Shown: piece by piece, positions 4,685 to 21,515 of the stretch
How positions within the stretch are numbered: position 1 is the stretch's first letter
Layout of the letters: each line of letters begins with the position of its first letter
Origin: Sphaerisporangium corydalis
Lineage (GTDB): Bacteria; Actinomycetota; Actinomycetes; Streptosporangiales; Streptosporangiaceae
Direction: 5' to 3'
Length of the DNA stretch: 64,000 nt
Assembly: GCF_025506355.1 (NCBI RefSeq)
Contig: NZ_JANZYP010000034.1
Coordinates: forward strand, 1 to 64,000
Notes under the pieces: generated by a model
Told to the model about the DNA's origin: nothing
What the model saw: the letters and a program-made list of their open reading frames with translations, nothing else
The model's database searches: none
Program-made: the position numbers and the translations under genes

Positions 4685-5462
4685 GCCCGCACCGTGAAGC
4701 CCCCGTCCGCCTCGCGCCGGGCCGTGAACTCCCCGTCCAGCAGCTCGACGCGCTCCCTCAGGCCGGCGAGGCGTCCACGCCCGTGGTGCGGATGAGCTCG
4801 GCCCGCGCCGCGGTGTCCCGCTCCACCGCGTTGATCTCCAACGCTCCCGCGTGCAGGACCATCAGCGAGACGCGGTGCGCCACCACGTCGTGCATGTCCC
4901 GGGCTATCCGGGCCCGCTCCTGCGCGCGGGCCCGCTCGGTACGGGCGAGCTGCTCGCCCTCCAGCCGGTCGGCCCGCTCGCACAGTCCTTCCAGCACCTG
5001 CCCGCGCGCGGTGGTCCACAACCCGAGCGCCATCGGGAGCCAGACGAACAGGGCCACGCCGCCGAGGGAGGAGGCCAGGGCCGCCCCGGGCGGCGGCAGC
5101 ACGAAGAGCAGGCTCGCCGACATCGCGTAGGTCGCCAGATGGGACCGGCGCCGGCAGGTCGTCGCCACGACGTAGGAGGTGACCGCCACCAGCAGACCCG
5201 GCGACCGCGCCAGCGCGTCCACGGCCGTGACCGTCAGCAGCGGCCACACCCGCCTCGGCGCCACCGCGACCCCGGACGCGGCCAGCAGCCCGACCAGCGT
5301 GGCCTGCGCGTAGTCATGGACCAGGGACAGGTGCAGAAAATTCTGGAGATACGATCGCGACCCGCTGACGACGGGGAAGAACGCGGCGCAGAAGGCGAAA
5401 GCGGGCAGCGTGCGCGGAGCCAGGCGATCGCGTAGCGACCACACCCATGACGTATCCACCAC
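4669..5462 (-). pseudogene. Sensor histidine kinase lacking its ATP-binding domain
   Basis: The N-terminal part has several hydrophobic segments, then a HisKA_3 dimerisation domain with phosphoacceptor His in ARIARDMHDVVAHRVSLM. Right after this domain (AELIRTTG) the reading frame ends at 4758, while the family's last C-terminal residues (LAGLRERVELLDGEFTARRE) follow in another frame to 4671. The roughly 100 residues that should form the HATPase_c domain, with its N, G1 and G2 boxes, are absent. An internal deletion plus frame change is the simplest explanation, so the protein cannot autophosphorylate. The start is GTG at 5462 or 5459, with no clear ribosome binding site. It forms a damaged pair with the regulator at 4024-4684. 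Confidence 0.8.
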
Positions 5463-6279
5463 GGAGCCCAGCGTAGGCGGGCCCGTCACCAGCCGAGGAT
5501 CCGCGGCGGTACGCGGTCGGCCGTTCCGTCCACGTCCGGACGTCCGGAAGGCGGCCGCGCAGCACCTGGACGCCCAGAGGGACGAACGCGAGCCAGGCGA
5601 GGCCGGCCACAACGACGTCGGAGAGAAGGCTCTCCTTGAGCACTCCTCCCCACAGCGTCCCCCACCCGAGCAGCAGAAGACACCGGACCGGCCCGAACGT
5701 CCCCGACCGGTAGGCGCCCACGGCCAGGAGCAGCGTTCCCGGGTACGCCCCGGCGGAGCAGAGGACGGGAACCAGCCACGGCCCGTAGGAGATGTCCACG
5801 TAGGCGTCCATCGCCAGCCCCGTCGTCCGGTCGAGGCCCAGCCGCCCCGTCAGCTGGAACAGGGTCTGCTCGACACCGGTGAAGTACAGCCGCGAGAACA
5901 GGCCGAGGACGAAGAGCCCGGCACCCCAGAACGCAAGCCGGGGACACCGGGTGGCGATGACGCGCGCGAGCGTGACGATCGCGGGACACAGCAGCACGGC
6001 CCCCGCGCAGAACACGGCGTAACCGGCCGTGACCAGCGCCGGCTCACGCGCGTACGCGGCCAGCTGCGAGGGGGCGGCGAACGGCTGCTCACGAAACCAG
6101 GCGAGCTGCTCGGAGGTGAAGGTCCCCGAATGAAGGACCAGGTAGCGCAGCAGCAGCCCCGCGAACCAGCCGACCGGCCCGATGACGAGCGTCACCCCTC
6201 CGACCAGGCGACCCGGAAACCACACGTTACGGTGCACGGTGCCGGACGTGGCTCGTTTTTCTCTCGTCACGCGGAGCAT
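5314..6279 (-). CDS. Multi-pass membrane protein of unknown function next to the broken two-component system
   Basis: No family was recognised. There are about six hydrophobic segments, for example VGGVTLVIGPVGWFAGLLL, ALVTAGYAVFCAGAVLLC, LAFWGAGLFVLGLFSRLYF and VVVAGLAWLAFVPLGVQVL, with a basic N-terminus. The last 50 residues or so (after about 5490) are Arg- and Gly-rich and run 149 bases into the sensor kinase gene, which is unusual. In another frame a stop lies at 5486, just before the kinase start, so the original C-terminus may have been lost by a small indel; this is inference. The gene probably belongs to the same transcription unit as the kinase and regulator. The start at ATG 6279 is supported only by frame. 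Confidence 0.6.
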   Translation of the reverse strand: MLRVTREKRATSGTVHRNVWFPGRLVGGVTLVIGPVGWFAGLLLRYLVLHSGTFTSEQLAWFREQPFAAPSQLAAYAREPALVTAGYAVFCAGAVLLCPAIVTLARVIATRCPRLAFWGAGLFVLGLFSRLYFTGVEQTLFQLTGRLGLDRTTGLAMDAYVDISYGPWLVPVLCSAGAYPGTLLLAVGAYRSGTFGPVRCLLLLGWGTLWGGVLKESLLSDVVVAGLAWLAFVPLGVQVLRGRLPDVRTWTERPTAYRRGSSAGDGPAYAGLRGGYVMGVVATRSPGSAHAARFRLLRRVLPRRQRVAIVSPEFSAPVPGP

Positions 6280-7067: not shown

Positions 7068-9833
7068 TTATTCCTCCTCATCATCGGCGAGGGTGGGAAG
7101 GACGTACTCCTGCGCCAGCCTGGCGAGATGCATAGGCAGCGGGAGTGCCAGGGCGTCGGGATAGTCCGGCGGACGGCGCATTTGATGGAGAGCGGCGGCG
7201 AAAGCCTCCGGCATGTCGCCGTCTGCCTCGTGGCAACCCAGTATGGAGATCTCGACCAGGCCAGGGTTCCATGCCTGTTTATCGGTGTCGATCGTGAAGC
7301 CACCCTTGTTTTTTCCCAGTTGAAGCACCCGCGGTGCCAACTTGTCGGCTTCTACGGCCGAGGCGGAGAACTGGCTCGCCTTCGGGGTGGTGCTCCAGAA
7401 CACGCGGGTAGCGCCTGGCAGCGTCCACAGCTGGGACGGCAGGCCATTGACGCCGGCGTCCGGGTGAATGCCCCACCACTGTGGGGTCTCCCGGTTCAAG
7501 GTCGAGCGTACGCGCGCCAGCCGCAGATCCGGGTCGAGGGGGCGGGGCATGGCGTGGCCGGTGCGGATGCGGTCGGGCTCGATCCGGCCATCTTGTAGCC
7601 AGGTCCAGTGTGAGCGGGCGTTCTGAGCATGCGCCAGCAGCAGCGTCGGCGTACGGCGGAGTGTGCGCAACAGCCGCTGGAGCCATTCCTCGGTGCTGCG
7701 GCGCTGCTCGTCCATGTCCCGCCGAAAGGACGGGCGAGTCCCGTCCTCGGCGGGAGCGAGCTCGGCCCTGCGTGCCAGGCCGATCAGCATCTCCGGGTAG
7801 GAGACCCAGGATCCGGCCCCGTCATCACCGTCTGGATCCCAACCTTCGACCTTGGCCAGGCCTCCGCCCACGGAGATCACTCGGACGGCGACCGGCACGT
7901 GGCCCGCCCAGCGGTTGGCGGTCGTCTTGTTCTTCCGGACGATCCACAGGGCGACGTAGCGCAGATCATCGGGGACGCCTTCCGTCAGGGTATGTTCGGG
8001 ATGAACCCGGACACCGAGCTGGCGGAGCGCGTCTGACCATGCCTTCCCCGCGCGGTGCGGTGCGGTCTTCACCGAGTCGTAGCGCCCCTCCCTCATGGGG
8101 ACGGTGACGAACTGGCTGAGGACACGGGCGTCCGCGCAGCCGAGCCGCAGTGCGAACTTCGGGTCCTCGTCAGTCGCGAAGTGCTCACGACGGTCCAGCT
8201 CGATCAGGGCGATCGTCGGCAGCAGCCCGGGGGCGTCGGCCTTGAGGAACTGCTCGGCCGCGATGCGGCGGGTCCTGATCGCCGCCGCGACCACGGCGTC
8301 AGTACGGCGGGTGCCCTCCGCGTAGGCGAGTTTGTCGGCGAGGCCGGCGGTCAGCTTGATACAGCGCAGCCGGACGATCAGCTCGGGGGTGGTCCACGTG
8401 AGGGTCTCGGCGTCGTCGAAAAGGGCAGGGCTCCCGCCGTCGCCGGACAACCCGAGGTGGGCAGCGAGCTGCGCGATCGCGGTGTCGCGCATGAGTGGCG
8501 TCTGCCAGAGGAGCCGTGCCTCCAGGACGGGGACGGCATCGCCGGCCGCCAAGCATGACAACGCGTAGGCGGTACCTGAGCGGCGACGCGCAGCGGCACG
8601 CTCCGCTTCAGCGGCGGCTTCGGCCTCGGACCGTCGCTTTACGGCGTTGGCCGGAGTGCTCTTGGCAAGGGTGGTCTCCGTAAGGGGCGCCACCGGAACC
8701 AGCTCCGGCGGAAACGCTCCGGCCGCCCAGTCGATGATCTGCGACCGCTGATGCGGCATGAGACCCGTCCCGACATCGTGGGAGCCCATTGCAGTGCTGT
8801 GGACGATCGCGGCATGCATGGCGTCGGTCAGCCAGCGGTCCGGAGCAGACACCAGCTGATCCGCAGACGGGAACGGACTGCCAAGTGAACCACCGCTCAG
8901 GATCCTGGTGGGGCCGCCATTCGTCCAGTCCGTCACGTAGGTCCTGGTGTCCTCATCCCAGCGGCGGCTCAACCGGGCCACGGCGAATCGCTCACTGAGT
9001 GGGGCACCGGCCAGCCACGGAACAGTTGGGCGAAGAAGCACCGTGACCTTGCGGCGGGCTGGGATCCGTACTCGGCCGTCCCTGCCCGTCCGGGTCGCCC
9101 ACCGACGGATGGAGCAGTGCAGATGGACCCGCGGCAGAGGTTGGAAGGGGACCGTTTGCACGGTCACGTTCAGGACCACCGAGAACCACGAGGGCCGAGT
9201 GCGCCCCTCGAACCGCAGCGGCTGTGAGACCAGCTCGGCGCCTTGGTCACGTGGCCCGCGCGGGACCGCCCGAAACTCCAGCGAGCCGCCCTCGTAGGGG
9301 TAAGAGCCGTGGGCCAGGATTCGGCGGGCCACCCAGTCGGTCAGCAACGGGTACTGGTGTTCGGTGGGCACGGCGGTGCCACCGTCACTCAGCCCACAAC
9401 GCAAGAGCTCCAGGTCAATCCTCGTCCAGCGGGGTGGAGCGGCGGCCAGCGCCGTCCGCGCGACTTTGAGCTCCTGTCGGGCACCGTCCGGGGAGAGCTC
9501 GGCCAACCAGTCGTTGATCAGCTTCCAGAAGACGGTATCGGGTGGCGGCTCTTGGTCCGTCGGGACCAGCAGCCACGGCGTGCCGGGCTCGGAACGCCCC
9601 TGCCGAGGTCGGGGAAGCACTCGCAAATCGGGCAGCAGCGCCTGCATGGCGTACTCCAGCCGGGCCGTTGGAACGGTCATGACCGGTTCGGATCGACCGA
9701 CGCTGCACAGGGCGAGAATCGCTTCCTGCCAGTGCTCGGGAAACGGCAGCATGCAGTAGCCGACGACAAGCGAGGCGTCAGGCGAGGACGGAATCCAGGC
9801 GGCTGTGCCGACCTGGCGATAGCGGACGGGCAT
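7068..9833 (-). CDS. PIWI-RE family protein (MID-PIWI, RNase H-fold) of a predicted nucleic-acid defence cassette
   Basis: PIWI-RE proteins are distant relatives of Argonaute, predicted from comparative genomics to bind guide/target hybrids in defence against invading DNA. This 921-residue protein has the expected long N-terminal module (about 1-520), then an RNase H-like region. Seen there: IALIELDRREHF near 545; LLLAHAQNARSHWTWLQDG near 740; a block with the family-defining Arg and Glu, VRSTLNRETPQWWGIH near 780; and the C-terminal LVEISILGCHEADGD near 866, followed by LPLPMHLARLAQEYVLP. It is the last gene of a four-gene minus-strand operon, 34 bases after the helicase. Whether it cuts or only binds cannot be told: the usual catalytic Asp set is not obvious. 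The neighbours (helicase, two nucleases) strongly support the call. Confidence 0.82.
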   Translation of the reverse strand: MPVRYRQVGTAAWIPSSPDASLVVGYCMLPFPEHWQEAILALCSVGRSEPVMTVPTARLEYAMQALLPDLRVLPRPRQGRSEPGTPWLLVPTDQEPPPDTVFWKLINDWLAELSPDGARQELKVARTALAAAPPRWTRIDLELLRCGLSDGGTAVPTEHQYPLLTDWVARRILAHGSYPYEGGSLEFRAVPRGPRDQGAELVSQPLRFEGRTRPSWFSVVLNVTVQTVPFQPLPRVHLHCSIRRWATRTGRDGRVRIPARRKVTVLLRPTVPWLAGAPLSERFAVARLSRRWDEDTRTYVTDWTNGGPTRILSGGSLGSPFPSADQLVSAPDRWLTDAMHAAIVHSTAMGSHDVGTGLMPHQRSQIIDWAAGAFPPELVPVAPLTETTLAKSTPANAVKRRSEAEAAAEAERAAARRRSGTAYALSCLAAGDAVPVLEARLLWQTPLMRDTAIAQLAAHLGLSGDGGSPALFDDAETLTWTTPELIVRLRCIKLTAGLADKLAYAEGTRRTDAVVAAAIRTRRIAAEQFLKADAPGLLPTIALIELDRREHFATDEDPKFALRLGCADARVLSQFVTVPMREGRYDSVKTAPHRAGKAWSDALRQLGVRVHPEHTLTEGVPDDLRYVALWIVRKNKTTANRWAGHVPVAVRVISVGGGLAKVEGWDPDGDDGAGSWVSYPEMLIGLARRAELAPAEDGTRPSFRRDMDEQRRSTEEWLQRLLRTLRRTPTLLLAHAQNARSHWTWLQDGRIEPDRIRTGHAMPRPLDPDLRLARVRSTLNRETPQWWGIHPDAGVNGLPSQLWTLPGATRVFWSTTPKASQFSASAVEADKLAPRVLQLGKNKGGFTIDTDKQAWNPGLVEISILGCHEADGDMPEAFAAALHQMRRPPDYPDALALPLPMHLARLAQEYVLPTLADDEEE

Positions 9834-9867
9834 GGCGGACTCCTCGGGAGGAAGGCGCGAGGAAGGA

Positions 9868-12800
9868 CTATGAGCCGACGGTCAGATTGCGGATCGCGTT
9901 GTAGAGCGGCTCGTACAGTAGGTGCGCGAGCTCCGGGTCGTCGGGATTGCTCAGTACGTGGCGAAGTGACGAGAGCAAGCCGTCCGGCTGTCCGACGAGC
10001 GTATCGGCGGAGCCAAGGCCGGGGGCGTTCGCCGCCGCAAGCCGCGGGGCGAACCGGGCGTCAATGAAGACGACGCGAGCCGGGACACCGCCTCGGACGA
10101 GCCGACCGATCACTTGCCACAGAGTGACGAGCTGATCCCAGGCGAAGACCTCCTTCTCCCACATTGGGAGCAGCGAGTGAACATAGCGCCGGGACAGCAG
10201 TCGCCGCCATTCGACTCGGGCGAGATGGCGGAACGCCAGCCCGGCATGTTCAAGGGTCGGCGCGTCGGAGACAAGCTCGGAGAAGGTCAGCGGACCCTGC
10301 GCTCGGCCGTCCCGCCGGGGTTGGTCACGGACGAAGCGGGTCGCCCAGTCGTTGATCGCGAAGATGGCGAGCGTCAGGTCGTCCGGGCGGGGATGCGGGC
10401 GGACCAGGAAGAATGCCGTACCGAACGCCGCGTTCCGCTGCGTGTTGAGGATGTTGTGGCCGCGTTCGACCGCCATCAGCGGCGCCACCAGGATCTCAGC
10501 CAAGCCATCCTCTGCGAACGTCGCCAGATCGCCGCGACGCAGCACTCCGGCCGCGTCCAGACCAGCGGGATCGAGCTCGGCGTCGTCGGACGCCAGCACC
10601 CGCACTCCGTTCTTCCAGCGGTCCATCTTCCTCATGGTCTCAGCGACGGCCGCGGCCTCTCGGTAGCTGCCGACCAGCAGCAGAGCCCGCTTGCGCGAGC
10701 CGTCCGAGACTCTCGCCAACTCCTGGTCGATCACGTTGGACAGGCCACCACGGCCCGGCCCCGCCAGCCGCTCGACGAGCGTGTTCACGACGGCGGGACG
10801 CACCTTCTGCGGCAAACCGGACACACTGATGGGCTTGTCGTCGTCGGTGTACAGGAAACGCGTCGTGAAGGTCGTCCTGGCGACGGCTTCCATCGACTCG
10901 GAAGACGGCATGAGCACCGCCGTGACCGGGGCGAGCACGTGAGCTCGACTGGATGAGCCCGCCCAGCTCGTCCCGGACATGAGCACGACGTGCGGTCCCG
11001 GTGTTCCCGGCGCGGTGCCGAGCCGATCGAGGTTGAGCAGCAGCTCTCTGCCAACGCCGGCGCACCGGAAGAACCGGAGGGTTCCGCTGAGCCGACCGAC
11101 GTCGTCGCGGGTGTGCTCGTTGGGCAGGAACTGGTAGCCGAGCACGTTGCCCATAGGCGACTCCGGCACGAACGGCGCATAGTCCAGCGGGGGGCGCCGA
11201 CCCAGTTCGTTGCCGGACGGGTCGAGGCGCAGCGCCGCTTCGACGACTGGCCACAGGAACGTCAGCCGCTCCAGCCTGTGGTCGAGTACGGTCAGCATCA
11301 GAGTGAATTCCAGCCTGCGGCACGTTGTCTCGCGCCAGTTCCGGTTGGTGACCACGGCCGGGGTGTTCTCGATCAGGGCGTCCAAGAGCTCTTGAACACG
11401 CGGCCGGACGTCGGCCGTGGCCAAGGCATGAAGCAGATCGGAGGCGACCGCGATCAGCCGAGTGGTGATCTCGTCATGGGGTCCGTGTTCGCCGAGCGGG
11501 TCGTCGCGGAAGGTGTCGAAAGACGCTTGGAGCGCCGTACGGAACGGGTCCTTCTCGGGCTCCGGAAGGTTATCGTCCTCGAAAAGGTCAGCGTCAGTGG
11601 GTTCGTCCGAGTCTGTGTCGGAGACGCCGAACCAGTCGGCGAGAAGTTTGTCCTGGAGGGTCCACGGACTGAAGTATTCGATGTCGATCCAGTCCCGAAG
11701 TTCCCCGTCAGATAGCAACGGGCGGTAGAGCCGGTCGGTCGCGGCGCTCACGGTGGTGAGAGCACTGTTCCAGCGTTCGATCTCCGGGTCGGTGAGAGGG
11801 AGCCGACCTCGAAGCGACATCTCGTTGATCTTGTGGGAGTGCAGGAGGTCCAACCAGGAGTCCGGGCCGGGCTGCACGAGCGTCGCGGACGGCGAGAAGA
11901 TCTGATCGAAGCGCATCTGAACGGCGTCGGCCTCATCGACGATCACGATGTCGCTCAGCAGGCAGGCCAGCTCGAGATGGCGGATTCGTTCCTCGTTGAG
12001 CGGGTGCGGGACGGCCGCTTGGACCAGGCTGGCCGGATTCGCCACCCAAATCAGAGAATCGACGAGTGATCGGGCCGTGCGATGCCGCGGACAGACGCTC
12101 CACATCGGGCAACTGTGCGGGGTGCCGGACACGTCATCGGCGGGCCGTTCGGGCTGCGCCGCCGTAGTGCCGTCGTAAGGACGCAGGGTCACGGTCGAGG
12201 GAGCGGCCCTGCGCGAGGGGCGCGGATGCAGAGTGACGCAGGGGGCGTCAGCGAATCGCAGCGGGCGAGCGGGCTCGAAACCGCGCAGAGCATCGAGCGG
12301 GCACGCTGTACTGAGGTCGTCGAACGCTTCGTCCAGGTGATCTAGGAGATTGGTCTCGCCGCGAGAGGCCAGCCGCCGATGAAGCCGCTGCACATGGGTC
12401 TCGCGGGTGCTGGCCCCGAGGACAGGAGCCGTGAAGCCAAGGGCTTCTTGGAAGACACGCAGGGCTTTGGTGATCCGCAGTTGCTCCGCGACATCGCCGA
12501 CGACAAGTGTCGTACGCAGGCCTCGACGAGCCGCCCAGACCGCGGTGATCAGCATCAGCGTACTCTTGCCCGCGCCGACCATGCCGACCAGGTGCAGCAG
12601 GCCGTTCAGAGTGAGGGTGTCGCTTTCGGTGAACGCGCCGATGGGACTAGGTCGAACCGCGAACCGCACCTGACTGAGCCGGGAATGCCAGCGACCCGCT
12701 GGCGCCGCAGCCAGACGCTCTTGCTCGTCCATCCATACGGCGGTCTCGGCTAGCTGCACCCGGTCTAGGTGAAGCGGCGAACCGTCTCCGGGCCGGCCCG

Positions 12801-13368
12801 CAGCAAGATTGTGACCGGAAACGGGCTCGAAGCAGAGCGTCTCAGGGATTGTGACGGAGGCGATGCGTCTGTGCTCCAGAAAGGTACTCCGGCCGGCGGG
12901 AGCGACCGGCACCTGCTTGACCGCGAACGGGGGCAGCGCCGACAGTGCGAGGTCGTACGCGGAGAGGCGGTCTTCCACTACGGTCGGCGTCAGCGGCCGG
13001 ACCGGCGCGGACAACTCCGCAGCCTCGAAGGCGCGCAGCCGTTCGGGGACGCGTTGGTAGGCCTCGACGGCTTGGTGCCATGACCGGCGGCGACGCAGGG
13101 CGGGAAGCAGATGGCGGGCAGCGGCGAGGGCGGTCGCCTCGGCTGCCCCGTGGACCACGCCCCTGACATCCGCGAACCGATAGCCGCTGAGCAGCATATG
13201 GGCGCTGCCCACCGGCTCGTCCGGGCAGATCCGAACCAGCAGGCCGAGGAGCAACTCCACCTCGCAGAAAGCCGAGCGTCCCAGCAGAGATGGCTCGGAC
13301 CGCAGCTCCGACCAGTACGGCCGCAGATCGTGAACGATCTTTTGGCACCAGGTCTCACGATCACGCAC
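9868..13368 (-). CDS. DinG/XPD-like Fe-S SF2 helicase of the PIWI-RE cassette
   Basis: This 1166-residue protein starts with a helical N-terminal region of about 230 residues, of the kind seen on helicases in PIWI-RE islands. The motor follows: Walker A in MVGAGKSTLMLIT near residue 266; a Cys-rich insertion (CPLDAL near 355, APCVTL near 376, SCPMWSVCP near 420) placed between Walker A and B exactly where XPD/DinG helicases carry a 4Fe-4S cluster; Walker B in IVIVDEADAVQM near 478; and motif VI in LWQVIGRLVRGG near 1086. DinG relatives unwind DNA and RNA-DNA hybrids with 5'-3' polarity, so it may open R-loops or hybrids for the PIWI-RE protein (inference). The start ATG 13368 overlaps the end of the preceding endonuclease gene, showing translational coupling. 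Confidence 0.82.
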   Translation of the reverse strand: MRDRETWCQKIVHDLRPYWSELRSEPSLLGRSAFCEVELLLGLLVRICPDEPVGSAHMLLSGYRFADVRGVVHGAAEATALAAARHLLPALRRRRSWHQAVEAYQRVPERLRAFEAAELSAPVRPLTPTVVEDRLSAYDLALSALPPFAVKQVPVAPAGRSTFLEHRRIASVTIPETLCFEPVSGHNLAAGRPGDGSPLHLDRVQLAETAVWMDEQERLAAAPAGRWHSRLSQVRFAVRPSPIGAFTESDTLTLNGLLHLVGMVGAGKSTLMLITAVWAARRGLRTTLVVGDVAEQLRITKALRVFQEALGFTAPVLGASTRETHVQRLHRRLASRGETNLLDHLDEAFDDLSTACPLDALRGFEPARPLRFADAPCVTLHPRPSRRAAPSTVTLRPYDGTTAAQPERPADDVSGTPHSCPMWSVCPRHRTARSLVDSLIWVANPASLVQAAVPHPLNEERIRHLELACLLSDIVIVDEADAVQMRFDQIFSPSATLVQPGPDSWLDLLHSHKINEMSLRGRLPLTDPEIERWNSALTTVSAATDRLYRPLLSDGELRDWIDIEYFSPWTLQDKLLADWFGVSDTDSDEPTDADLFEDDNLPEPEKDPFRTALQASFDTFRDDPLGEHGPHDEITTRLIAVASDLLHALATADVRPRVQELLDALIENTPAVVTNRNWRETTCRRLEFTLMLTVLDHRLERLTFLWPVVEAALRLDPSGNELGRRPPLDYAPFVPESPMGNVLGYQFLPNEHTRDDVGRLSGTLRFFRCAGVGRELLLNLDRLGTAPGTPGPHVVLMSGTSWAGSSSRAHVLAPVTAVLMPSSESMEAVARTTFTTRFLYTDDDKPISVSGLPQKVRPAVVNTLVERLAGPGRGGLSNVIDQELARVSDGSRKRALLLVGSYREAAAVAETMRKMDRWKNGVRVLASDDAELDPAGLDAAGVLRRGDLATFAEDGLAEILVAPLMAVERGHNILNTQRNAAFGTAFFLVRPHPRPDDLTLAIFAINDWATRFVRDQPRRDGRAQGPLTFSELVSDAPTLEHAGLAFRHLARVEWRRLLSRRYVHSLLPMWEKEVFAWDQLVTLWQVIGRLVRGGVPARVVFIDARFAPRLAAANAPGLGSADTLVGQPDGLLSSLRHVLSNPDDPELAHLLYEPLYNAIRNLTVGS

Positions 13369-14470
13369 GGCGGTTCTCCTTCAGCCGGGCTTTGGCCTTC
13401 CGGATGAGGGCGTCATCGGTTATCAGGATGAGGTCCGCAGCCGATGCGGGGCGGTTCCGGGCAAATATCTCGAGGTAGCCCGGACGCTCCTGCACACGCT
13501 GTGCCGGCACCACCCAGAACGCCTCGTCGTATGGGGGCGTGGGCGGGACCGGCTTGGCTGCGCGGCCGAGGAAGTACGGATGAGCCCAGTCCTTGACGTC
13601 GATAGCCCAGACCTGACCGTCTGGGAAGGTCAGACGCAGGTCATAGCTGTCGAAGTTCGGCCACATCTCCAGGACGAGGCGGGGCAGCCGCAGCCGCCGC
13701 TCCAGGGAGACTTCGGCCTGACCGGGGCCCGTGACGAACTGCCGCAGCGGACGTTCCAGCTGCCGCAGATCCTCACCCGAGTCGATCTCCCGACCCACCG
13801 GAGGAGGGCCGACGCGGCGGCAGCGGTCGCGTTCGCACCACCACTGACCGTCCTGGACGGGAGTGAGCAGGGTGAGGCAGCGGGCACAGGTCGCGTAGAC
13901 GTGATCTCGGACGAGACCATCGCTGACCTCCTGGTAGATGACCGCGAGAATGGAGCGGACCGGTTCGAGCATCAGATCGCTCATCACGGCGAACGCCTCG
14001 GTGGAGGTGAGCACCGGCTGCTCGATGAGAAGCCCGCGGAACGCCGTATATGCCTCCGGTTCACCGGCGTCGAGACAGAGGCGCAACGCCTTACGAATCA
14101 CCTCACGGTCACGATGCTCAGCCGCACTGTCCTGGCTGCGAGTCTTCCACTCGAAGCACAGCTCGGTCGGACGGCCGACGCCCGGGTCGAGCAGGTGGTC
14201 GTCCGGGCCGATGGTGTCGGGTAGGGAGTCGAGCGGCCAATCCGACAAAGGGCGCTCCCGGCACCAGGAGAACAGCTCCGCCAGGCTCGCCGGCGGTTCG
14301 GCACCGCGCAGCAGGCAGGCCAGGACCGTCCGGTCCAGGGCGCGCTGTGCCTCATCGTCATAGGGGAGGTGGAAGGAGTCGAGGCCGGTCCTCCTGTCGG
14401 CGTTCACCAAGGCCGTGGCCAAGGTATGCAGGAGCAAAATCGTCTCGTGCGGCGCGGAGATCGACATCAC
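13361..14470 (-). CDS. Restriction-endonuclease-fold protein of the PIWI-RE cassette
   Basis: The 369-residue protein has an alpha-helical N-terminal region (about 1-190), then a short Cys-bearing segment (CARCLTLL and WWCERDRCRR near 200-215) that may bind zinc. A C-terminal PD-(D/E)XK nuclease core follows: YDLRLTFPDGQVWAIDVKDW near 275-295 gives the D...DVK metal and catalytic signature. Known PIWI-RE islands carry a protein with a similar N-terminal domain and REase core, so it is probably the cutting component. Its ATG overlaps the stop of the Cas4-like gene by four bases and its end overlaps the helicase start, so the genes are co-translated. The substrate is unknown. Confidence 0.75.
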   Translation of the reverse strand: MMSISAPHETILLLHTLATALVNADRRTGLDSFHLPYDDEAQRALDRTVLACLLRGAEPPASLAELFSWCRERPLSDWPLDSLPDTIGPDDHLLDPGVGRPTELCFEWKTRSQDSAAEHRDREVIRKALRLCLDAGEPEAYTAFRGLLIEQPVLTSTEAFAVMSDLMLEPVRSILAVIYQEVSDGLVRDHVYATCARCLTLLTPVQDGQWWCERDRCRRVGPPPVGREIDSGEDLRQLERPLRQFVTGPGQAEVSLERRLRLPRLVLEMWPNFDSYDLRLTFPDGQVWAIDVKDWAHPYFLGRAAKPVPPTPPYDEAFWVVPAQRVQERPGYLEIFARNRPASAADLILITDDALIRKAKARLKENRRA

Positions 14471-16047
14471 ACCCCCTCCTCACACCAGGCACGAACATCG
14501 CAGGTGCCACAGGTCCGCTCGCAGGGGCGGGCCTGATAGACGGTGTCCTCAGCCCACGGGGCGGCCAGAGCGCTGACGACTTCGCGGGCCTGGGCCTGAG
14601 TGGTCTCGTCGAACGGGTCGATCTCCTCGCAGCCGGCCGGCCGGTCGGGGTAGAGCACCTCGAGCTCGATCCGGGAGCGTCGCGGGTCGCCATCCAAAAC
14701 GCCTGCGCTCATCAGCAGCACTGCCAAGGCGAGTTGGGGAAACGCTTCAAGCAGGGGGCGGCCCTCCCAGAGCCGTGTGCTCAATGTCTTCGTCTCACGC
14801 CAGACCCAGCCGCCACCATCGGTGTACAGCAGATCGGGCAACGCGATGACGACGACGTCGGCGTCCTCGTCATAGGCGGTCACGGTGTGCTGGGTGAGTA
14901 CGGTCTCCTGGTCGCGGAGGCCGTCCAGCGGGCAAACTGCGCGATGGGCTTTCACCATGGCGAGTGCCGCGGGCTCCTCGGCACCGAGATCGGGGAACAT
15001 TTCGGGGAGGGGCACCGAACGGCAGCCACCGATAGGGCGCGCCTTGTGCTGCAGGTTCAACCAGTCATCGACTGCACGCCCCCGGCGAATCGGAAGCGGT
15101 TCGGGATCAGGACTACGCAGATGGAGCACCCTGCAAGCGTGGAACTGAGCCGGACAGGCAGCATGGATGCGCAGGTCGGAGGCGGACACGCTGCGGCGCT
15201 TGCGATTCTGGCGGCGGGCGACGCCGAGCAGATGCGGGGTCCGGGGAGGTTGGACGCAGCCGATCAGACCGTCACAATCCACGCAGTCCGAGCCCGGCAC
15301 GGTCTCCTCATCGCTGATCATTTGCGCGAGAGCGGGACGAACCAGTTCCTTATAGCGGCGAGCGACTGTCGCGGTGTCCCACTCGCCGAGGGTGCTCCAT
15401 TTACCGTCTCCGCAACCCACGGCGACGACCCGCACCGTTTCGGCAGGTGGGTGGGCGCCTTGGACCGGGACGAACGCAGAGCCGTAAGAGGAAGTGGCGG
15501 CGACCCCGAAAGCGGCGACGTAGGCGGCTGCGACGATCTGGGCCTCGGATCGGCTCTCCTTCAAACCGTTGACAGACAGCAGCCACAGTTCGCGGATTGA
15601 GCCGTCCGCCGAGGCGTAGCGGCGGCCCCAGGCGGTGCGCTCGTAGCGGCGAGCGCCGCGCGCGTCCGGTTCGGCCAGCTGGTTGATGGCCACCCAGTCC
15701 CCAGACACTGGGTGGGTAGGCTGCTGGCCGGTCTCGCCGAGCCAGGCCTCGAAGTCCCGACGCGCATTGAAATAGTTCCGAATCGCGAATTTCGCCCACG
15801 CAATGTGAACGGGATGGCACACTTTGTGGCGGGAATCCGCCTGAGTCTCCTGAAGATCGAGGCCGCGCATCACGGGGGCAAGGGCGAAGTCCTCGAACGG
15901 GGACCGCCGAGAGCGCGTCGGATCAAGCCGTATTAGTGGCCGGGCTCGCAGCGCCTTTCCACGCGGGCAGGTACGGGGATCGTCCGCCAGCAAGGGAAGG
16001 CCGACCCGGATCAGGGCTCCAGGATCACCGACCGTAGGCACATGCAT
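14467..16047 (-). CDS. Cas4/RecB-like PD-(D/E)XK nuclease with predicted Fe-S cluster, first gene of the PIWI-RE operon
   Basis: The 526-residue protein has an N-terminal region of unknown fold (about 1-280). The rest reads like the AddB/Cas4 class: a first cysteine in SDLRIHAACPAQFHACRVLH near 297; a nuclease core with VVVIALPDLLYT and WVWRETKT (Asp and Glu-x-Lys) near 400-420; and a C-terminal cysteine set CERTCGTCDVRAWC near 512-523. This order (Cys, D-EXK, CxxC-x5-C) is the one that ties a 4Fe-4S cluster around RecB-family nucleases. It is the first gene of the operon, with ATG at 16047 almost at the divergent promoter. No cas1/cas2 is nearby, so it is not part of CRISPR adaptation. It may process DNA ends made by the helicase. 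Confidence 0.72.
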   Translation of the reverse strand: MHVPTVGDPGALIRVGLPLLADDPRTCPRGKALRARPLIRLDPTRSRRSPFEDFALAPVMRGLDLQETQADSRHKVCHPVHIAWAKFAIRNYFNARRDFEAWLGETGQQPTHPVSGDWVAINQLAEPDARGARRYERTAWGRRYASADGSIRELWLLSVNGLKESRSEAQIVAAAYVAAFGVAATSSYGSAFVPVQGAHPPAETVRVVAVGCGDGKWSTLGEWDTATVARRYKELVRPALAQMISDEETVPGSDCVDCDGLIGCVQPPRTPHLLGVARRQNRKRRSVSASDLRIHAACPAQFHACRVLHLRSPDPEPLPIRRGRAVDDWLNLQHKARPIGGCRSVPLPEMFPDLGAEEPAALAMVKAHRAVCPLDGLRDQETVLTQHTVTAYDEDADVVVIALPDLLYTDGGGWVWRETKTLSTRLWEGRPLLEAFPQLALAVLLMSAGVLDGDPRRSRIELEVLYPDRPAGCEEIDPFDETTQAQAREVVSALAAPWAEDTVYQARPCERTCGTCDVRAWCEEGV

Positions 16048-16107
16048 GGCTTTAGAAGAACACTATTTGTGAGCATAGTCAATGCACATGATGCTAATCT
16101 CGCCGCT
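16048..16107. promoter_or_regulatory. Compact divergent promoter between nuclease operon and kinase
   Basis: Only about 60 bases separate the two divergent start codons, and they are distinctly AT-rich for this window. On the minus strand TTGACT at 16082-16077 is a good -35, but a matching -10 is weak, and the transcript would begin at or near the ATG (leaderless or nearly so). On the plus strand, TTGTGA near 16067 and an AT-rich stretch before GTG 16108 are possible elements. Expression of the two sides is likely coupled. Confidence 0.4.
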
Positions 16108-17529
16108 GTGAACACGTGGGAGATCCCGGACGAGCGCTTCCGGGCCGTCGAGCGGCTCTCCAAAGGCGGGATGGCCGACGTGTGGGTCGCCCTGGTCGTC
16201 GCCACCGGCGAGAAGGTCGTCGCCAAGCGGCCACGTCCGGACCGGATGCTCGACGATGAGACACGGGGTGAGCTGATCCGGCGGTTCGACAGGGAGGTCC
16301 GGCTGCTGAAGAAGATCAAGTGCCGTGGCGTCACCCGCCTGCGCGCCGATGGCGGCTGGCCGAACGACCCGTGGTTCGTCATGGATTATGCGGACGGGCC
16401 GAATCTCGACGCGTACGTCATGAGACATCGAGCGCTCCCGGTCGACGTCGCGGCCGCGATCATGGTGGATCTGCTCGAGATCCTCCGGGTCGTACACGCC
16501 GCCAAGGCTGTGCATCGGGACATCAAACCCTTCAATGTGGCGATCGACCTTACGGGCCGGATCTATCTGCTCGATTTCGGCATCGCCTACCGTGAGGGTT
16601 CGGAGGAGACTCGCCTGACCAAGCTCGGTTCGACTCCGGGCACTCCCGGCTACACGGCGCCCGAGGCGATCAAAGGGATCCGAGAGGTGACCGCCGCCGC
16701 AGACACTTACAGCTGCGGTTGCCTGTTGTACTTCCTGTTGGCCCGACAGCCGCCCTTCCCCACCCATCAAGGGGACCTCGAGCGGAACCACGCGGAGGTC
16801 GTGCCGCGACGCATCAACGAGCGTCTCAGGCCGGATGTCCCCGAACCGCTCGCCGATCTGCTGGCGCGCATGCTGGAGAAGGACCCGAAAATGCGGCCAG
16901 AGGTCGCGGAGGCCCTGCGGATATTGCGACGGTACCTCCCCGTTGCGGGAGCCCTGGCGCCCGATCCGGTATTGGAGCCGGACCCGACCGCATGGCACCG
17001 CGGGGAGGAAGCAGTCCAACCGGCTCCCGTACCCGAGCCGCAGACACGACGTAGAACGGCCTCGCGTCCGGGTCGCATCCAGTTCCGGGGGATGGTGGAA
17101 GCGGCACGGCAAGAGGTCGGCACCGGCAAAGGACCCGCGACCACTGCGCTCGCCGATGCAATGCTCGATGCGCGGAAGGCCTGGGGGCATTCAGACGCCG
17201 ATGTGTTACGAGCGGAGCTCTGCCTGGCCGACTCGGAGCTGGAGGACGAGAACTGGTTGGAAGCGGGTGACGTTTATCGGATGGTGACCCGGTTGAGCGA
17301 GGACCACGCCACTGGACCGCTACGGGACGTCTACATCGCGGCACTGTTCGGCAGGGCGGAATGTGAGCTCGCGGCGCAGTATGTGGAGGAGGCGTTCCAG
17401 TTCTGGAACCAGGCACGATTGATCCTCCGTCCCTCCGATCCGGCAGAACTCTTCACCAGACGGGACAGAATCGCGGAGGAATTGGCCGAGACTGGTTTCA
17501 CCCCGGCGGGACGATCAGCCGACCGGTAG
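16108..17529 (+). CDS. Cytoplasmic Ser/Thr protein kinase with C-terminal helical (TPR-like) region
   Basis: The kinase domain is complete: Gly-rich loop LSKGGMADVWVA, Lys in VVAKRPRP, catalytic loop AVHRDIKPFNVAIDL near residue 138, LLDFGIAYREG near 157, and GYTAPEAI. After a Pro-rich linker (about 295-330) comes a helical region of repeat type (TTALADAMLDARKAWG, LCLADSELEDENWLEAG, ALFGRAECELAAQYVEEAF) ending without any membrane segment, unlike the PASTA-type housekeeping kinases. GTG 16108 begins the conserved part (NTWEIPDERFRAVERL); ATG 16042 upstream is open but would overlap the divergent nuclease gene. It shares a promoter region with the PIWI-RE operon and runs 32 bases into the methylase-like gene at its 3' end. 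It may phosphorylate a cassette component (inference). Confidence 0.82.
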   Translation: MNTWEIPDERFRAVERLSKGGMADVWVALVVATGEKVVAKRPRPDRMLDDETRGELIRRFDREVRLLKKIKCRGVTRLRADGGWPNDPWFVMDYADGPNLDAYVMRHRALPVDVAAAIMVDLLEILRVVHAAKAVHRDIKPFNVAIDLTGRIYLLDFGIAYREGSEETRLTKLGSTPGTPGYTAPEAIKGIREVTAAADTYSCGCLLYFLLARQPPFPTHQGDLERNHAEVVPRRINERLRPDVPEPLADLLARMLEKDPKMRPEVAEALRILRRYLPVAGALAPDPVLEPDPTAWHRGEEAVQPAPVPEPQTRRRTASRPGRIQFRGMVEAARQEVGTGKGPATTALADAMLDARKAWGHSDADVLRAELCLADSELEDENWLEAGDVYRMVTRLSEDHATGPLRDVYIAALFGRAECELAAQYVEEAFQFWNQARLILRPSDPAELFTRRDRIAEELAETGFTPAGRSADR

Positions 17530-19474
17530 TGATCGTCTCTTCCACGGCACGTTGGATGTGTGCGCCCTCTGCAGTGAGAGCGGCGATGGCTCCCTTCAGA
17601 GAGACCGCCTTCTGGTAGATCTCGCCTTGCGCCCGCTGCTGCTCGAATGGCAGGCGGAGGACTCGGAGTCGACGCACATCCACTCGGGACAACGAGGAAG
17701 CCCGGTGTCCCGCCTGCCGGACATTGTCTGGAGCGCGCAGGCAGGCCGCCAGGAACCAGGGGTCTATCACTGAACGGTCCGGTCGGATCAGTTGGAAATG
17801 TGGTCCGAAGATTACGGGCGCCGCGTCCTCCACCCAGAGATCGAACGCTTTCGACATGGCAACCACGATCAGGTCATCCATCGTCGAGGCCGTCAGTTGC
17901 CCGCCGTGCTCCAGGGCATCCTCGCGGCTGATCCATCGGCCACCGTCGGCACCGAGATCGGAGAGAAGCAAGACAGGGACTCCCCCTTGCCCCCGTTCAC
18001 CGAGACGTAGCAGAGGCTCTGGTACCGCGCGGCCTGTGATGATCTCCAGCGCCCCGGACCGCTCTAGCTCGGCGACCGTCACGAAGGAGGGCTTCTCAGG
18101 TGCGGCTGACGGACGGAACCGGGACAGTTCACGGCCAAGCTTGGTGATCTCGGTCAGTTTGGTGTCGAAGGTCGCCCATGACGCTGACAGCATCGCCGCC
18201 GACGACGTTGACGCGGGGATCCGGCGGCTGGGCGTGAGATCTACATGTTCATCGAGCAGCTCGATCACAGGGACGCGGACCGAGCCTTGCTGGGGCGAGT
18301 TGTTACGCGCTCCGGCGATCTGCAGGCTGAGGCCTTCCCATCCGATCATTGTCCGGCCGAGTGAATCGAGGGAACGATGGCCGCTCCCGTCGATGAAAAG
18401 AGGGTCTTCGACAGGTGCCGCCTGGGCGGTCTTGCACAGCACCCAGAGTTGCAGAGCGATGCCGAAAGGCGGAGCCGCTCCCGGCGGAAGCGAGATGACC
18501 GCACGCAGAGTTCCCGTCCGAAGGAGCGCACCTCTAATACTTCGTCCGGCGCGACGCGTAGCCACGGCCGGCGGCAACAGCAGGACCGCCACTCCACCGG
18601 GAGCGAGAGCAGAGACCGCATTCTGCACCCAGGCAAGTTCCGGTTCCGTCCGCAGCGGTTGCCCATAGACCCATCTCGCATCGGTGGCCAGTTCGGCTTG
18701 GCCCCATTCACGTTCGTTCGACGGCGGGACGGAGAGGACCACGTCGAAGACCTCGTCTTGAAAACTGCCGGTCAGGAGGCTGTCGGCCGCAAAAATCACG
18801 GCATCGGAAGCACCTACGAGCTGCAGCCGCAACTCGGCGATCCTGCCGAGGAGAGGATCATGGTCTTGCCCAGCCAGCTTCGCGGCAGGCCATGACCGCT
18901 GCGCTGCGATCAGAACATTTCCCGTACCGCAGGAGGGATCCAGCACCGACGTGACGGCACTGTTATGCCACAAGGCGGCGATAGCGGTCATCAGGTCCGC
19001 CAACGGCGCAGGGGTGGCGGGGATCTGCCTGACGAACGCCTTCAGGAAACGGGCGAAGAGCGCCTCAAGAAAGCCAGATATGTCCTCATTCCCCGCCAGA
19101 TCAACGGCTTGGCTGACGAGCGCTCTGAGTTCGGGATCGTTTCGCACCTCGGATGAGGCTGGCGGCTCGACGCCAGCGAGCTCGGTGCCCACGGCGATGA
19201 TGACCGCACCAATCAGGTCCCGGTCACCGAGAGCCTCGATCCTGGGCCACAAGCTCTTGAGGCCACCGGTCGCCCGTTTGATCTTCTCGTGCCGGAGGAG
19301 CCATCGCTCAATCTCATCGAGAGAAAAGACCGGACTGCTGTCCGTCCCGCCGTTCATCTTCGGAAAGTCGTCGAAACGCCGTCGCCAGTTGCTGACCGCC
19401 GCACGTCCGACTCCAGCCATCCTCGCGGTCTCCGCCAGTGTGATGGTGAACGGTTCTCTCGATGGCTCCGCCAT
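17498..19474 (-). CDS. HTH-N6-adenine methylase-HsdS-like protein with degenerate catalytic motif IV
   Basis: The 658-residue protein has an N-terminal helix-turn-helix (LAETARMAGVGRAAVSNWRR, about 12-32), a helical region, an N6 methylase core with intact SAM motif I (SVLDPSCGTGNVLIAAQ near 181), and a C-terminal region resembling HsdS target-recognition domains (about 450-650, with LRLPFEQQRAQGEIYQKAVS as the usual helical end). The catalytic motif IV, normally NPPF or NPPY followed by N-x-K-D-W-G, reads VVLSVPPSNEREWG near 250: the Asn and the aromatic residue are both replaced. Loss of these residues is expected to abolish methyl transfer while DNA and SAM binding could remain. The gene is convergent with the kinase. 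Its own start ATG follows a GAGGCGAAC purine box. Confidence 0.8.
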   Translation of the reverse strand: MAEPSREPFTITLAETARMAGVGRAAVSNWRRRFDDFPKMNGGTDSSPVFSLDEIERWLLRHEKIKRATGGLKSLWPRIEALGDRDLIGAVIIAVGTELAGVEPPASSEVRNDPELRALVSQAVDLAGNEDISGFLEALFARFLKAFVRQIPATPAPLADLMTAIAALWHNSAVTSVLDPSCGTGNVLIAAQRSWPAAKLAGQDHDPLLGRIAELRLQLVGASDAVIFAADSLLTGSFQDEVFDVVLSVPPSNEREWGQAELATDARWVYGQPLRTEPELAWVQNAVSALAPGGVAVLLLPPAVATRRAGRSIRGALLRTGTLRAVISLPPGAAPPFGIALQLWVLCKTAQAAPVEDPLFIDGSGHRSLDSLGRTMIGWEGLSLQIAGARNNSPQQGSVRVPVIELLDEHVDLTPSRRIPASTSSAAMLSASWATFDTKLTEITKLGRELSRFRPSAAPEKPSFVTVAELERSGALEIITGRAVPEPLLRLGERGQGGVPVLLLSDLGADGGRWISREDALEHGGQLTASTMDDLIVVAMSKAFDLWVEDAAPVIFGPHFQLIRPDRSVIDPWFLAACLRAPDNVRQAGHRASSLSRVDVRRLRVLRLPFEQQRAQGEIYQKAVSLKGAIAALTAEGAHIQRAVEETITTGRLIVPPG

Positions 19475-19497
19475 GTTCGCCTCGCCCTCGTCTTCGT

Positions 19498-19540
19498 TGA
19501 CTCAGTTTACCAACGGGACATGCTGAGTAGCTGAGGGGCC
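19498..19540 (-). promoter_or_regulatory. Candidate promoter of the methylase-like gene
   Basis: On the minus strand TAAACT (19509-19504) fits the actinobacterial -10 pattern TANNNT and would start transcription about 23 bases before the ATG at 19474. No good -35 was seen. A weak call, supported by position and by low local GC. Confidence 0.35.
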
Positions 19541-19900: not shown

Positions 19901-20389
19901 TCAGCTGGGGTGTTCTGTGGTCCACCTGAAGGCCGCTGCCATGTGGGTCGCGCCTTCGCGGAGGTAGAAGCGGTGTGCCTCGGTTCGGGAGACGCCAGAC
20001 TCCAGGAAGACGTAGTCGGCGCCATGGTCGAGGGCCCATGCTCTGGCGGCCGTCAGCAGGGCGGTGCCAACGCCTTGGGAGCGCCATTCGGGGTGCACCG
20101 CCAGGTCCTCGATCGAGGCCCGGCGGCCGAAGCGCACCGACAGGATGTCCAGGTAGACGCTGGCCACGCCGACCAGCTGATCCTGGTCCGAGCGGGCTTC
20201 GAACAGCGCGGCGTCCTTGGAGGCGAGGACCCGCGTGGTGCGCTCGATGGCGCGGTCGCGGTCCCAATCCGGGGGACGGCTGCCGGGCGGGGCGAAGAGC
20301 CACTCCAGCCCCGTCACGAACTCGGCCTCGGCACCTGGCTGGGACCGTCGAACCTGAATGCTCATCGAAGCGCGTCCGGTGGACACCAT
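19901..20389 (-). CDS. GNAT-family N-acetyltransferase
   Basis: GNAT enzymes move an acetyl group from acetyl-CoA to an amine. In this 162-residue protein the acetyl-CoA-binding motif A is clear: IEDLAVHPEWRSQGVGTALL, with the R-x-x-G-x-G pyrophosphate loop, followed by motif B (DYVFLESGVSRTEAHRFYLR), which includes the conserved Tyr. The substrate cannot be inferred. The ATG at 20389 follows GGAAGGAG at six bases, which decides the start over an internal ATG at 20365. It is transcribed alone, divergent from the AraC-type regulator at 20646. Confidence 0.82.
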   Translation of the reverse strand: MVSTGRASMSIQVRRSQPGAEAEFVTGLEWLFAPPGSRPPDWDRDRAIERTTRVLASKDAALFEARSDQDQLVGVASVYLDILSVRFGRRASIEDLAVHPEWRSQGVGTALLTAARAWALDHGADYVFLESGVSRTEAHRFYLREGATHMAAAFRWTTEHPS

Positions 20390-20645
20390 CTCAGCTCCTT
20401 CCGCGATCAGGCACCGCGCTCATGAGAAATGGGCGCGCCCACAATAGCGCAGCGGACTTCTCCCCCGATCGAGCTCCCGGCCGCGGCCGCCCAGCCGGTG
20501 GTCCTGGCCCGCACGGCACCCATGTAGCGCATGCACAGCTCAGCGCCGTACCGTCGCGTTCGTTCGGCCGGCTGATCGGATCGGATCGCTGCGGTCGGGT
20601 AGGGCCGGGGCTGTTCCGGCAGGGTTGACGTCGGAGGGAGGTCCG

Positions 20646-21515
20646 ATGATCTCGGCGCTCAACAAGCTTGTCGATCTCGTCGAGGAGCACCTCGGCGAGG
20701 AGATCGACGTCCACCTGCTGGCCAGGGAAGTCGGCACGACCGAGTACCACCTGCGCCGGATGTTCTCGTCGTTGGCCGGCATGCCGCTGTCGGAGTACGT
20801 GCGCCGCCGCCGCATGACCGTCGCCGCCGCCGACGTCGTCCGGGGCGAGGACGATCTGCTGAGCATCGCCGTCCGGCACGGATACGGCTCGGCCGAGGCG
20901 TTCGGACGTGCGTTCCGCGCGGTCCACGGTTCCGGCCCCGGGGACGTGCGCCGCGACGGAGGCCCCCTGCGTGCACAACCGCAGCTCAGGTTCCGCCTGA
21001 CCGTCGAAGGGAGCATCCCCATGGACACCCGCATCATCGACCGCCCCGCGTTCCGGCTGGTCGGACACGCGGCCCGGGTTCCGCTCATCCACCAGGGCGT
21101 CAACCCGCACATCCAGCGGCACATCACCGCGCTGCCGCAGGAGGAGCATCTCCGGCTGAAGGCCCTCGGCGACACAGAACCAGGGGGCCTGCTGCAAGTC
21201 TGCGCCGACCTCGACCCGGACGGCACAGAGGGTAGCGAACTGACCTACCTGCACGGGGTCGCCGTCTCCCGGGACACGCCGGCCCCCGACGACCTCGACG
21301 CCATCGAGGTGCCGGCCGGCATGTGGGCGGTCTTCCGTACCGCCGGACCGCATCCGCAGGCGCTGCAGACGACCTGGGCGGCGACCGTGACCGAGTGGTT
21401 CCCCTCCAACCCCTGGCGTATGCGGCCAGGTCCGTCGATCGTCACGGTCCTCGAGCGCGCGGATGACTTCAGCACGGCGACATGCGAGCTGTGGTTACCC
21501 GTCGAACCTGCCTGA
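20646..21515 (+). CDS. AraC-family regulator with GyrI-like effector domain
   Basis: This 289-residue protein has an N-terminal pair of AraC-type helix-turn-helices (LVDLVEEHLGEEIDVHLLAR, then LLSIAVRHGYGSAEAFGRAF, about 5-105). A GyrI-like small-molecule-binding domain follows from about 120 (MDTRIIDRPAFRLVGHAARV, ending ATCELWLPV). This layout, as in the Rob and SoxS/TipA-related regulators, senses lipophilic or antibiotic-like ligands. The start is ATG 20646, after CGGAGGGAGG at five bases; an in-frame ATG at 20625 is less good. The target is unknown; it may regulate itself or the GNAT gene opposite. Confidence 0.85.
   Translation: MISALNKLVDLVEEHLGEEIDVHLLAREVGTTEYHLRRMFSSLAGMPLSEYVRRRRMTVAAADVVRGEDDLLSIAVRHGYGSAEAFGRAFRAVHGSGPGDVRRDGGPLRAQPQLRFRLTVEGSIPMDTRIIDRPAFRLVGHAARVPLIHQGVNPHIQRHITALPQEEHLRLKALGDTEPGGLLQVCADLDPDGTEGSELTYLHGVAVSRDTPAPDDLDAIEVPAGMWAVFRTAGPHPQALQTTWAATVTEWFPSNPWRMRPGPSIVTVLERADDFSTATCELWLPVEPA

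Follow-up and report, generated by a model that had tools for sequence, protein, structure and literature searches.

Are the protein kinase and the methylase-like protein encoded beside a PIWI-RE operon chance neighbors, or do they belong to it, and if so, what might they do? The question is raised by a 64,000-nt stretch of the Sphaerisporangium corydalis genome (contig NZ_JANZYP010000034.1, positions 1 to 64,000; hereafter the window), in which four minus-strand genes for a PDDEXK nuclease, a restriction endonuclease (REase)-fold nuclease, a DinG-like helicase and a PIWI-RE protein are accompanied by a divergent kinase gene and a gene for a methylase-like protein (Table 1). A first-pass annotation, made from the sequence alone, had proposed that all six genes form one unit. 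A 2013 prediction holds that islands of the pPIWI-RE type are a nucleic-acid-guided restriction system (excerpts of PMC3702460). In the open-access literature we found little functional work on these islands, no experiment on the proteins treated here, nothing on their control, and no PIWI-RE system recognized as having a kinase or methylase-like partner (subscription papers and preprints lay outside the search). What is new here is a shared DNA element, together with the kinase and the methylase-like protein as regular members of the unit; the four core proteins are already modeled in PADLOC-DB. We put at roughly 0.6 the probability of the following overall reading: the six genes form a unit with two promoters, in which the methylase-like protein would be a self-controlled DNA-binding switch paired with the kinase.

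Two sets of genomes were used to ask how regularly the six genes occur together. The PIWI-RE RNase H family was used to search the order (345 genomes), which gave 73 carriers (72 above the cut-off), and a PIWI profile was used on named genomes, which gave 78 loci (cited below by L numbers), mostly from Streptomyces and Streptosporangiales. All four core genes were present in 70 of the 78 named loci, and in 69 of these 70 the kinase gene diverges from the PDDEXK gene, the contig of the 70th beginning at PDDEXK. The methylase-like gene was found in 64 of the 70, upstream as in the window in 62 and behind PIWI in two (L215 and L223). Among the six loci where it was not seen, the contigs of L183, L184 and L218 end too early, 919 bp are visible in L210, and 1.7-1.9 kb are visible in L188 and L212. 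The eight loci without a full core are located at contig ends (L206, L209, L245 and L255) or are partial or decayed (L250, L251, L258 and L259). The order-wide set contains 15 loci of the same clade besides the window; the kinase gene is divergent from PDDEXK in all 15 and the methylase-like gene lies in the same stretch in 13, while in the remaining two the contig breaks off within the kinase gene, and the methylase-like gene lies at the end of another contig, beside a kinase fragment. In one genome (L088/L242) the methylase-like gene is inverted.

The partners also group by locus. The 15 best non-self matches of the methylase-like protein (459-587 bits; next 335) belong to precisely those 15 genomes in which a PIWI-RE locus of the clade was found. 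Among 93 kinase matches (44 in its own genome and 49 in a relative's), the window kinase scores 246 bits with the relative's PIWI-locus kinase and 118 with the runner-up. In trees made with FastTree, 69 PIWI-linked kinases fall on one side of a branch with low support (71), and 68 PIWI-linked methylase-like proteins on one side of a branch with support 100 (two decayed rows of L254 were left out); the nearest relatives of the window copy in the latter tree are mostly from Streptosporangiaceae. Both families are widespread without PIWI-RE, since homologs of the methylase-like protein are present in 280 of 345 genomes and a kinase stands beside 30 of 47 sampled copies, and this would suit the view that the two genes are defense-island neighbors without a role in PIWI-RE action. 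The conservation in 69/70 and 64/70 loci, the grouping by locus in the trees and the shared element described below oppose that view, which we consider largely excluded. The six genes are thus nearly certainly one functional unit, as the first-pass annotation had supposed for the kinase and the methylase-like protein. The annotation would have been refuted had the two genes accompanied PIWI-RE no more often than by chance, and this check came out in its favor; the co-occurrence with PIWI-RE was found in one clade, not in PIWI-RE loci generally: further PDDEXK-bearing PIWI-RE loci have no kinase beside PDDEXK.

The element TTGACTnAGTTCACA was first spotted by eye in the region between the kinase and PDDEXK genes and then scored. 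Its consensus over 63 unique sites, TkGACTnAGTTCACA, is an imperfect inverted repeat around ACTnAGT. Between the kinase and PDDEXK genes it was present at up to three mismatches in 65 of 66 loci and at up to two in 62, against a background of 21 sites at up to two mismatches elsewhere in 2.83 Mb of strand-summed sequence, a figure that includes the copies before the methylase-like gene. L211, L235 and L237, which were outside the first 66-locus scan, also carry the element, bringing the total to 68 of 70 kinase-bearing loci. Other exact palindromic arms in this region did not recur, the best being shared by five of the 66 loci. The two loci without the element are L188 and L212 (best matches with six and five mismatches), in which no methylase-like gene is seen in the visible sequence upstream of the kinase; searches of their genomes gave no close methylase-like copy, the best homolog scoring 204 bits in one and the other yielding nothing at E 1e-20, and neither genome has a site at one mismatch or fewer. 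The loci that served for counting the element are those where it had first been noticed; the methylase-side, kinase-only, gene-less and genome-wide checks were made afterwards. First, all 20 loci with a full-length methylase-like gene, including the window, have a copy at up to three mismatches before this gene, 14-130 bp from its estimated start and always in the opposite orientation, and L215 and L223 have it although their gene is ~12 kb from the kinase/PDDEXK site. Second, the element was found in none of the nine kinase-bearing PIWI loci of the order-wide set that lack the methylase-like gene (in this comparison one of the 15 six-gene loci, L064, was off the anchor; its site was found in the methylase-side scan). 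Third, the 9.48-Mb genome of the window has eight sites at up to two mismatches, two of them at this locus, and a reversed-pattern control gave three. Eight other genomes were searched at up to one mismatch: five of the six that carry the unit have sites, the two without the unit have none, and seven of the eight sites in unit-carrying genomes are at or within ~1 kb of the unit. This covariation suggests that the methylase-like protein probably binds the element.

The element could instead be a strong promoter box for the operon, with TTGACT as the -35 hexamer, and in several relatives TTCTCT follows TTGACT 17 bp on, as judged by eye. On the other hand, AGTTCACA outside the hexamer carries 1.3-2.0 bits per base over the 63 unique sites (values inflated because the sites were chosen by match), many Streptomyces loci have TGGACT rather than TTGACT, and a promoter box explains neither the invariable reversal of the methylase-side copy nor the absence of the element from L188 and L212, which show no methylase-like gene, and from the nine kinase-only loci; we therefore regard this explanation as quite improbable.

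What kind of protein would read this element? Pfam, a predicted structure (mean predicted local distance difference test score, pLDDT, 86.7; predicted template modeling score, pTM, 0.65), Foldseek and a profile search agree that the methylase-like protein combines a helix-turn-helix (HTH), an N6-methylase fold and one target-recognition domain (TRD) in a single chain; the profile search places S-subunit matches at residues 530-655, and Foldseek supports a methylase fold with a TRD. The HTH is the best-conserved part of the family (0.79, versus 0.60 for the methylase and 0.55 for the TRD). Motif I (DPxCGxG) is intact, and motif IV is VPPS in the window, which fails the canonical [DNS]PP[FYW]. 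An aromatic fourth residue of motif IV is seen in 29 of the 65 PIWI-linked rows that can be read there (the motif is cut off in 4 of 69) versus 49 of 49 rows of the wider family, and on the tree its loss covers the window's whole subclade, two other Streptomyces rows and L122, with five changes in all. Because motif IV reads VPPS, ordinary methylation is unlikely in the window copy, and the idea of an active methylase everywhere was dropped for the window subclade on this comparison. The sequence-specific recognition that the first-pass annotation had ascribed to this protein thus fits as far as the HTH and the TRD go, and loses ground where it would imply methylation.

These observations bear directly on a restriction-modification model, in which the methylase-like protein would mark host DNA at the TRD site, the nucleases of the PIWI-RE operon would attack unmarked DNA, and the kinase would only tune the process. 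By fold and by profile the protein resembles type I M subunits and an intact single-chain methyltransferase (PacII, 7vru; Vibrio vulnificus, 7eew), motif I is kept, NPPF in 28 of the 65 readable linked relatives means that part of the clade may still methylate, and BREX (bacteriophage exclusion) works by methylation in this manner (excerpts of PMC11842806). The window protein shares the methylase fold and the TRD with the type I methylase-specificity (M-S) proteins and differs from them in its additional N-terminal HTH, VPPS and kinase partner, and in the lack of HsdR in the unit; no HsdR match was found among the six proteins with Pfam or PADLOC-DB. The loss of an aromatic residue throughout the subclade, at a position kept in the wider family, weighs against the restriction-modification model, as does its failure to predict a shared element, and we judge it unlikely.

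In the mechanism that we prefer, the methylase-like protein has lost or is losing methylation and would act as a DNA-reading regulator. Its HTH would bind the element between the kinase and the operon and before its own gene, most likely repressing both; that repression is its main role is slightly favored. Foreign DNA, perceived via the TRD and the S-adenosylmethionine (SAM) module or through a phage-caused change, would flip the switch together with the kinase, most likely by phosphorylation of the regulator. Regulation by phosphorylation, also put forward in the first-pass annotation, is a prediction: the kinase residues K and HRD, and D and G within DFG, do not vary among 69 aligned sequences (F in 95%), and that the methylase-like protein is the substrate is a tentative assignment, somewhat short of an even bet. 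The released operon would then supply a complex. Within it, PIWI-RE would bind a guide or an RNA-DNA hybrid and leave it uncut, the duplex would be opened by DinG, and cleavage would fall to the REase and PDDEXK nucleases. The analysis yields a unit delimited to six genes, an element of 15 bp whose candidate binder can be named, and two cases of natural loss; if the reading is true, it describes a new kind of defense regulator, a methylase turned into a transcription switch and partnered by a kinase, and points to a single control that can serve unrelated systems of one island.

The last point arises from the wider methylase-like family, of which we sampled 47 loci, mostly from the top of the similarity list and not at random, including L137 and L139 without kinase. 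The 30 adjoining kinases are co-directional, 25 downstream and five upstream. Recurrent neighbors are a DrmA cluster (6 of 47), DrmB (4), HsdR (3), a DruE-like helicase (3) and a UvrD-like helicase (7), each cluster being named from one member (DrmA 3.2e-228, DrmB 1e-71, HsdR 2.1e-121, DruE 6.9e-50, UvrD by Pfam). Related elements at up to three mismatches lie upstream in 9 of 51 wider-family stretches versus 3 of 400 random windows. In Streptomyces sp. VRA16, the genome of L223, six sites at up to two mismatches fall in a 38-kb stretch (12 in the whole genome; reversed-pattern control 5), and five of them are at defense genes: between DrmA and the UvrD-like helicase (L308:2666), before a 1925-aa helicase-REase (L308:10880), before GmrSD (L308:11868), between a methylase-like gene and the kinases-DrmD-DrmMI genes (L309:8314), and before the PIWI unit; L308:17974 is at no recognized gene. 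Two further Streptomyces loci have the element before a DrmD homolog beside the PIWI unit (L197:16434 and L254:15848), and L215:21457 is near helicase-REase and GmrSD homologs. Among 128 sites at up to two mismatches in loci above 5 kb, which overlap so that sites are counted repeatedly and which were chosen for these genes, 87 are near the kinase and/or PDDEXK only, 21 near the methylase-like gene, six near DrmD, DrmA/UvrD, helicase-REase or GmrSD, and 14 near no reference gene. The simplest account is that the regulon of the methylase-like protein spans an island in some genomes. More broadly, we give even odds to the idea that an HTH-fused, worn-out type I methylase-specificity protein and a Ser/Thr kinase form a portable master regulator of actinobacterial defense islands, with one operator for several unrelated systems (PIWI-RE, DISARM DrmA/DrmD, GmrSD and helicase-REase) that would be kept quiet and released together.

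Several observations count against the switch and its extension. The loci are not independent counts because they share ancestry, 14 of the 78 named loci match contigs of the order-wide set in length, and both trees are FastTree trees with long branches. Partial combinations exist: L250 has only the kinase, the methylase-like gene and PIWI, L251 only the helicase and PIWI, and L066 (G325) pairs a close PIWI-RE gene with a fragment of the helicase and lacks the other four. The nine PIWI loci with a kinase and without a methylase-like gene imply that the kinase can work without this protein. Besides the NPPF relatives mentioned above, the canonical [DNS]PP[FYW] is present in just 32 of 49 wider-family rows, and loss of the aromatic residue lowers methylation and need not abolish it. 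The binding of the element by the methylase-like protein is inferred from covariation, in which the two natural losses carry much weight, and L210 has the element at three mismatches with no methylase-like gene in its visible sequence; 9 of the 20 methylase-side sites match at exactly three mismatches, and 4 of 17 PDDEXK loci without a recognized kinase have the element at up to three. No site at up to two mismatches was found in the scanned stretches of DrmA/DrmB- or HsdR-linked wider methylase-like genes, where L172 has one at three, and nine extra stretches of DrmA- and HsdR-type operons likewise gave none at up to two and one at three, ~3.9 kb from HsdR.

Which protein would cut? Of 71-72 aligned sequences, 98% retain the Walker residues and four Cys of the helicase, 97-100% the REase D...DxK, and 97-98% the D, E, K and three Cys of PDDEXK, its P being retained in only 81%. 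The PIWI protein of the window has His735 where some relatives have the catalytic Asp of the RNase H fold, which is not a requirement for membership in pPIWI-RE islands; Asp stands in this column in 8 of the 28 distinct PIWI-RE rows that are readable, and the others have His, Gln and further residues (L015, L018 and L019 were left out of this count). In Pseudomonas stutzeri PIWI-RE, two Asp are required for cleavage (excerpts of PMC10991935); His735 would correspond to one of these. R774/R776 and E861, candidates for the conserved R and E of PIWI-RE, are invariant in the 11 relatives aligned, and a Protein Data Bank sequence search with the PIWI profile gave nothing at E 0.01. In the window copy, reading of nucleic acid probably falls to the PIWI protein and the methylase fold, and cleavage to the two nucleases; cutting by REase/PDDEXK rather than PIWI is the moderately better supported option. 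The target is predicted to be mobile DNA, and we consider a defense function likely. The excerpts of PMC10991935 also report that a P. stutzeri PIWI-RE knockout is more sensitive to ciprofloxacin, which could indicate that the unit serves replication or repair rather than defense; the patchy spread of PIWI-RE in the order, the variable flanks and the recurrence of the element, within one genome, at genes of DISARM, GmrSD and helicase-REase speak against such a role, which seems rather unlikely.

The core of the unit corresponds to known systems. As in the three-gene pPIWI-RE islands and PADLOC Ppr, the order is REase, DinG-like helicase and PIWI-RE with overlapping or close ends (34 bp between PIWI-RE and helicase; overlaps of 8 bp between helicase and REase and of 4 bp between REase and PDDEXK); unlike here, where the kinase, the M-S methylase-like protein and the element are regular, the excerpts of PMC3702460 describe a triad without an associated methylase gene. 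The kinase open reading frame is open from 16042, its likely start being the GTG at 16108, 60 bp from the PDDEXK start, and the kinase and methylase-like genes overlap tail to tail by 32 bp. Pfam assigns the PIWI-RE protein to pPIWI_RE_X (5.2e-106), RNaseH_pPIWI_RE (8.7e-80) and MID (1.5e-29), all three above cut-offs, the helicase to pPIWI_RE_Z (8e-44), the REase to pPIWI_RE_Y (8.9e-49) and pPIWI_RE_REase (7.6e-38), and the others to PDDEXK_1 (1.3e-19), Pkinase (4.5e-39) and N6_Mtase (6.8e-24). The PADLOC-DB (2023) models PprPIWI, PprDinG, PprRE and PprPDDEXK all matched (E 3.4e-108 to 4.2e-259), and no Ppr model was among the 25 PADLOC-DB matches listed for each of the kinase and the methylase-like protein. 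Gene calls and both databases thus bear out the six genes and the placement given in the first-pass annotation.

Table 1 Features of the PIWI-RE locus in the window.
Feature	Coordinates	Strand	Remarks
PIWI-RE protein, 921 aa, X + MID + RNase H-like domains	7068..9833	-	Pfam, PADLOC-DB profiles
DinG-like helicase (PprDinG), Walker A/B + four conserved Cys	9868..13368	-	Pfam, PADLOC-DB, alignment
REase-fold nuclease (PprRE), D...DxK intact	13361..14470	-	Pfam, PADLOC-DB, alignment
Cas4/RecB-like PDDEXK nuclease (PprPDDEXK), PD...ExK + three conserved Cys intact	14467..16047	-	
Candidate operator 1, TTGACTATGCTCACA	16068..16082	-	2 mismatches vs consensus; between kinase and PDDEXK starts
Ser/Thr protein kinase, K/HRD/DFG, all-helical C-terminal tail	16108..17529	+	divergent from operon
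Methylase-like protein, HTH + N6-methylase-like + one TRD + helix (M-S fusion)	17498..19474	-	
HTH of methylase-like protein, residues 10-61	19292..19447	-	
Motif IV VPPS of methylase-like protein	18719-18730	-	
Candidate operator 2, TTGACTCAGTTTACC	19497..19511	+	2 mismatches; directly before methylase-like start, opposite orientation

Three other defense systems share parts with the two additional proteins. In MADS (methylation-associated defense system; mad1-mad8), the best PADLOC match of the kinase is mad6 (9.5e-59), and the methylase-like protein matches mad2 (2.8e-16) and, weakly, mad1 and mad5; mad3, mad4, mad7 and mad8 are not among the matches listed for the six proteins, and the NCBIfam MADS scores are far below the cut-off. 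BREX type 2/Pgl combines a kinase and a methylase in one system. The window kinase matches BREX_PglW at 54 bits, far below the 990-bit cut-off, and no PglY or PglZ is among the matches listed. DISARM (defense island system associated with restriction-modification), in Streptomyces and relatives, is linked by the wider methylase-like/kinase pairs that follow DrmA or DrmB (6 and 4 of the 47 loci) and by the element before DrmD or DrmA in three loci, whereas the window unit is without a Drm protein.

Some loci depart from the common arrangement. Most unit genes of L254 (Streptomyces sp. SW4) are split over several frames, representing a decayed copy or a poor assembly, and L134 (G313) is a remnant in which a PIWI fragment is all that accompanies the methylase-like gene. 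Two loci that lack the methylase-like gene have a STAND NTPase (NB-ARC + TPR) adjoining the PIWI-linked kinase (L081:2946-5807 and L098:14378-16447). In L064, L067, L077, L132 and L133 a UvrD-like helicase gene is located upstream of the methylase-like gene, and the same cluster recurs beside wider methylase-kinase pairs. In L095:11563-19999 a methylase-like gene lies beside the PIWI-RE operon, and after it comes a fusion of a kinase with a DruE-like helicase; in L122:3-7154 the gene diverging from PDDEXK is another methylase-like gene (motif IV APPV), beside a 1532-aa protein with a mad8-like C-terminus (9.6e-38); both methylase-like neighbors are from outside the clade. In L141, L168 and L178, HsdR, a YgjP-like metallopeptidase, the methylase-like gene and the kinase stand in a row as a type I restriction set with a kinase.

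How the cassette reached its site can be judged from its surroundings. No tRNA was found in the window. Across 11 genomes from the genus, the counterparts of the flanking genes at 20625-21515 and 2828-3910 were never adjacent outside the genome of the window, so that no empty site could be drawn. The decayed flanks noted at first on both sides hold for the left, where a two-component system is broken (4016-5612; a response regulator with a receiver domain and no output domain in frame beyond it, and a histidine kinase cut short), and fail on the right, where the nearest genes match their families over most of their length (GNAT at 19901-20389, AraC/GyrI-like at 20625-21515, an LCM methyltransferase and TetR). 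The flanks outside the six genes differ among loci, and the G+C content falls from ~0.71 at 21-24 kb to ~0.64 at 17-20 kb of the window, which fits acquisition of the cassette.

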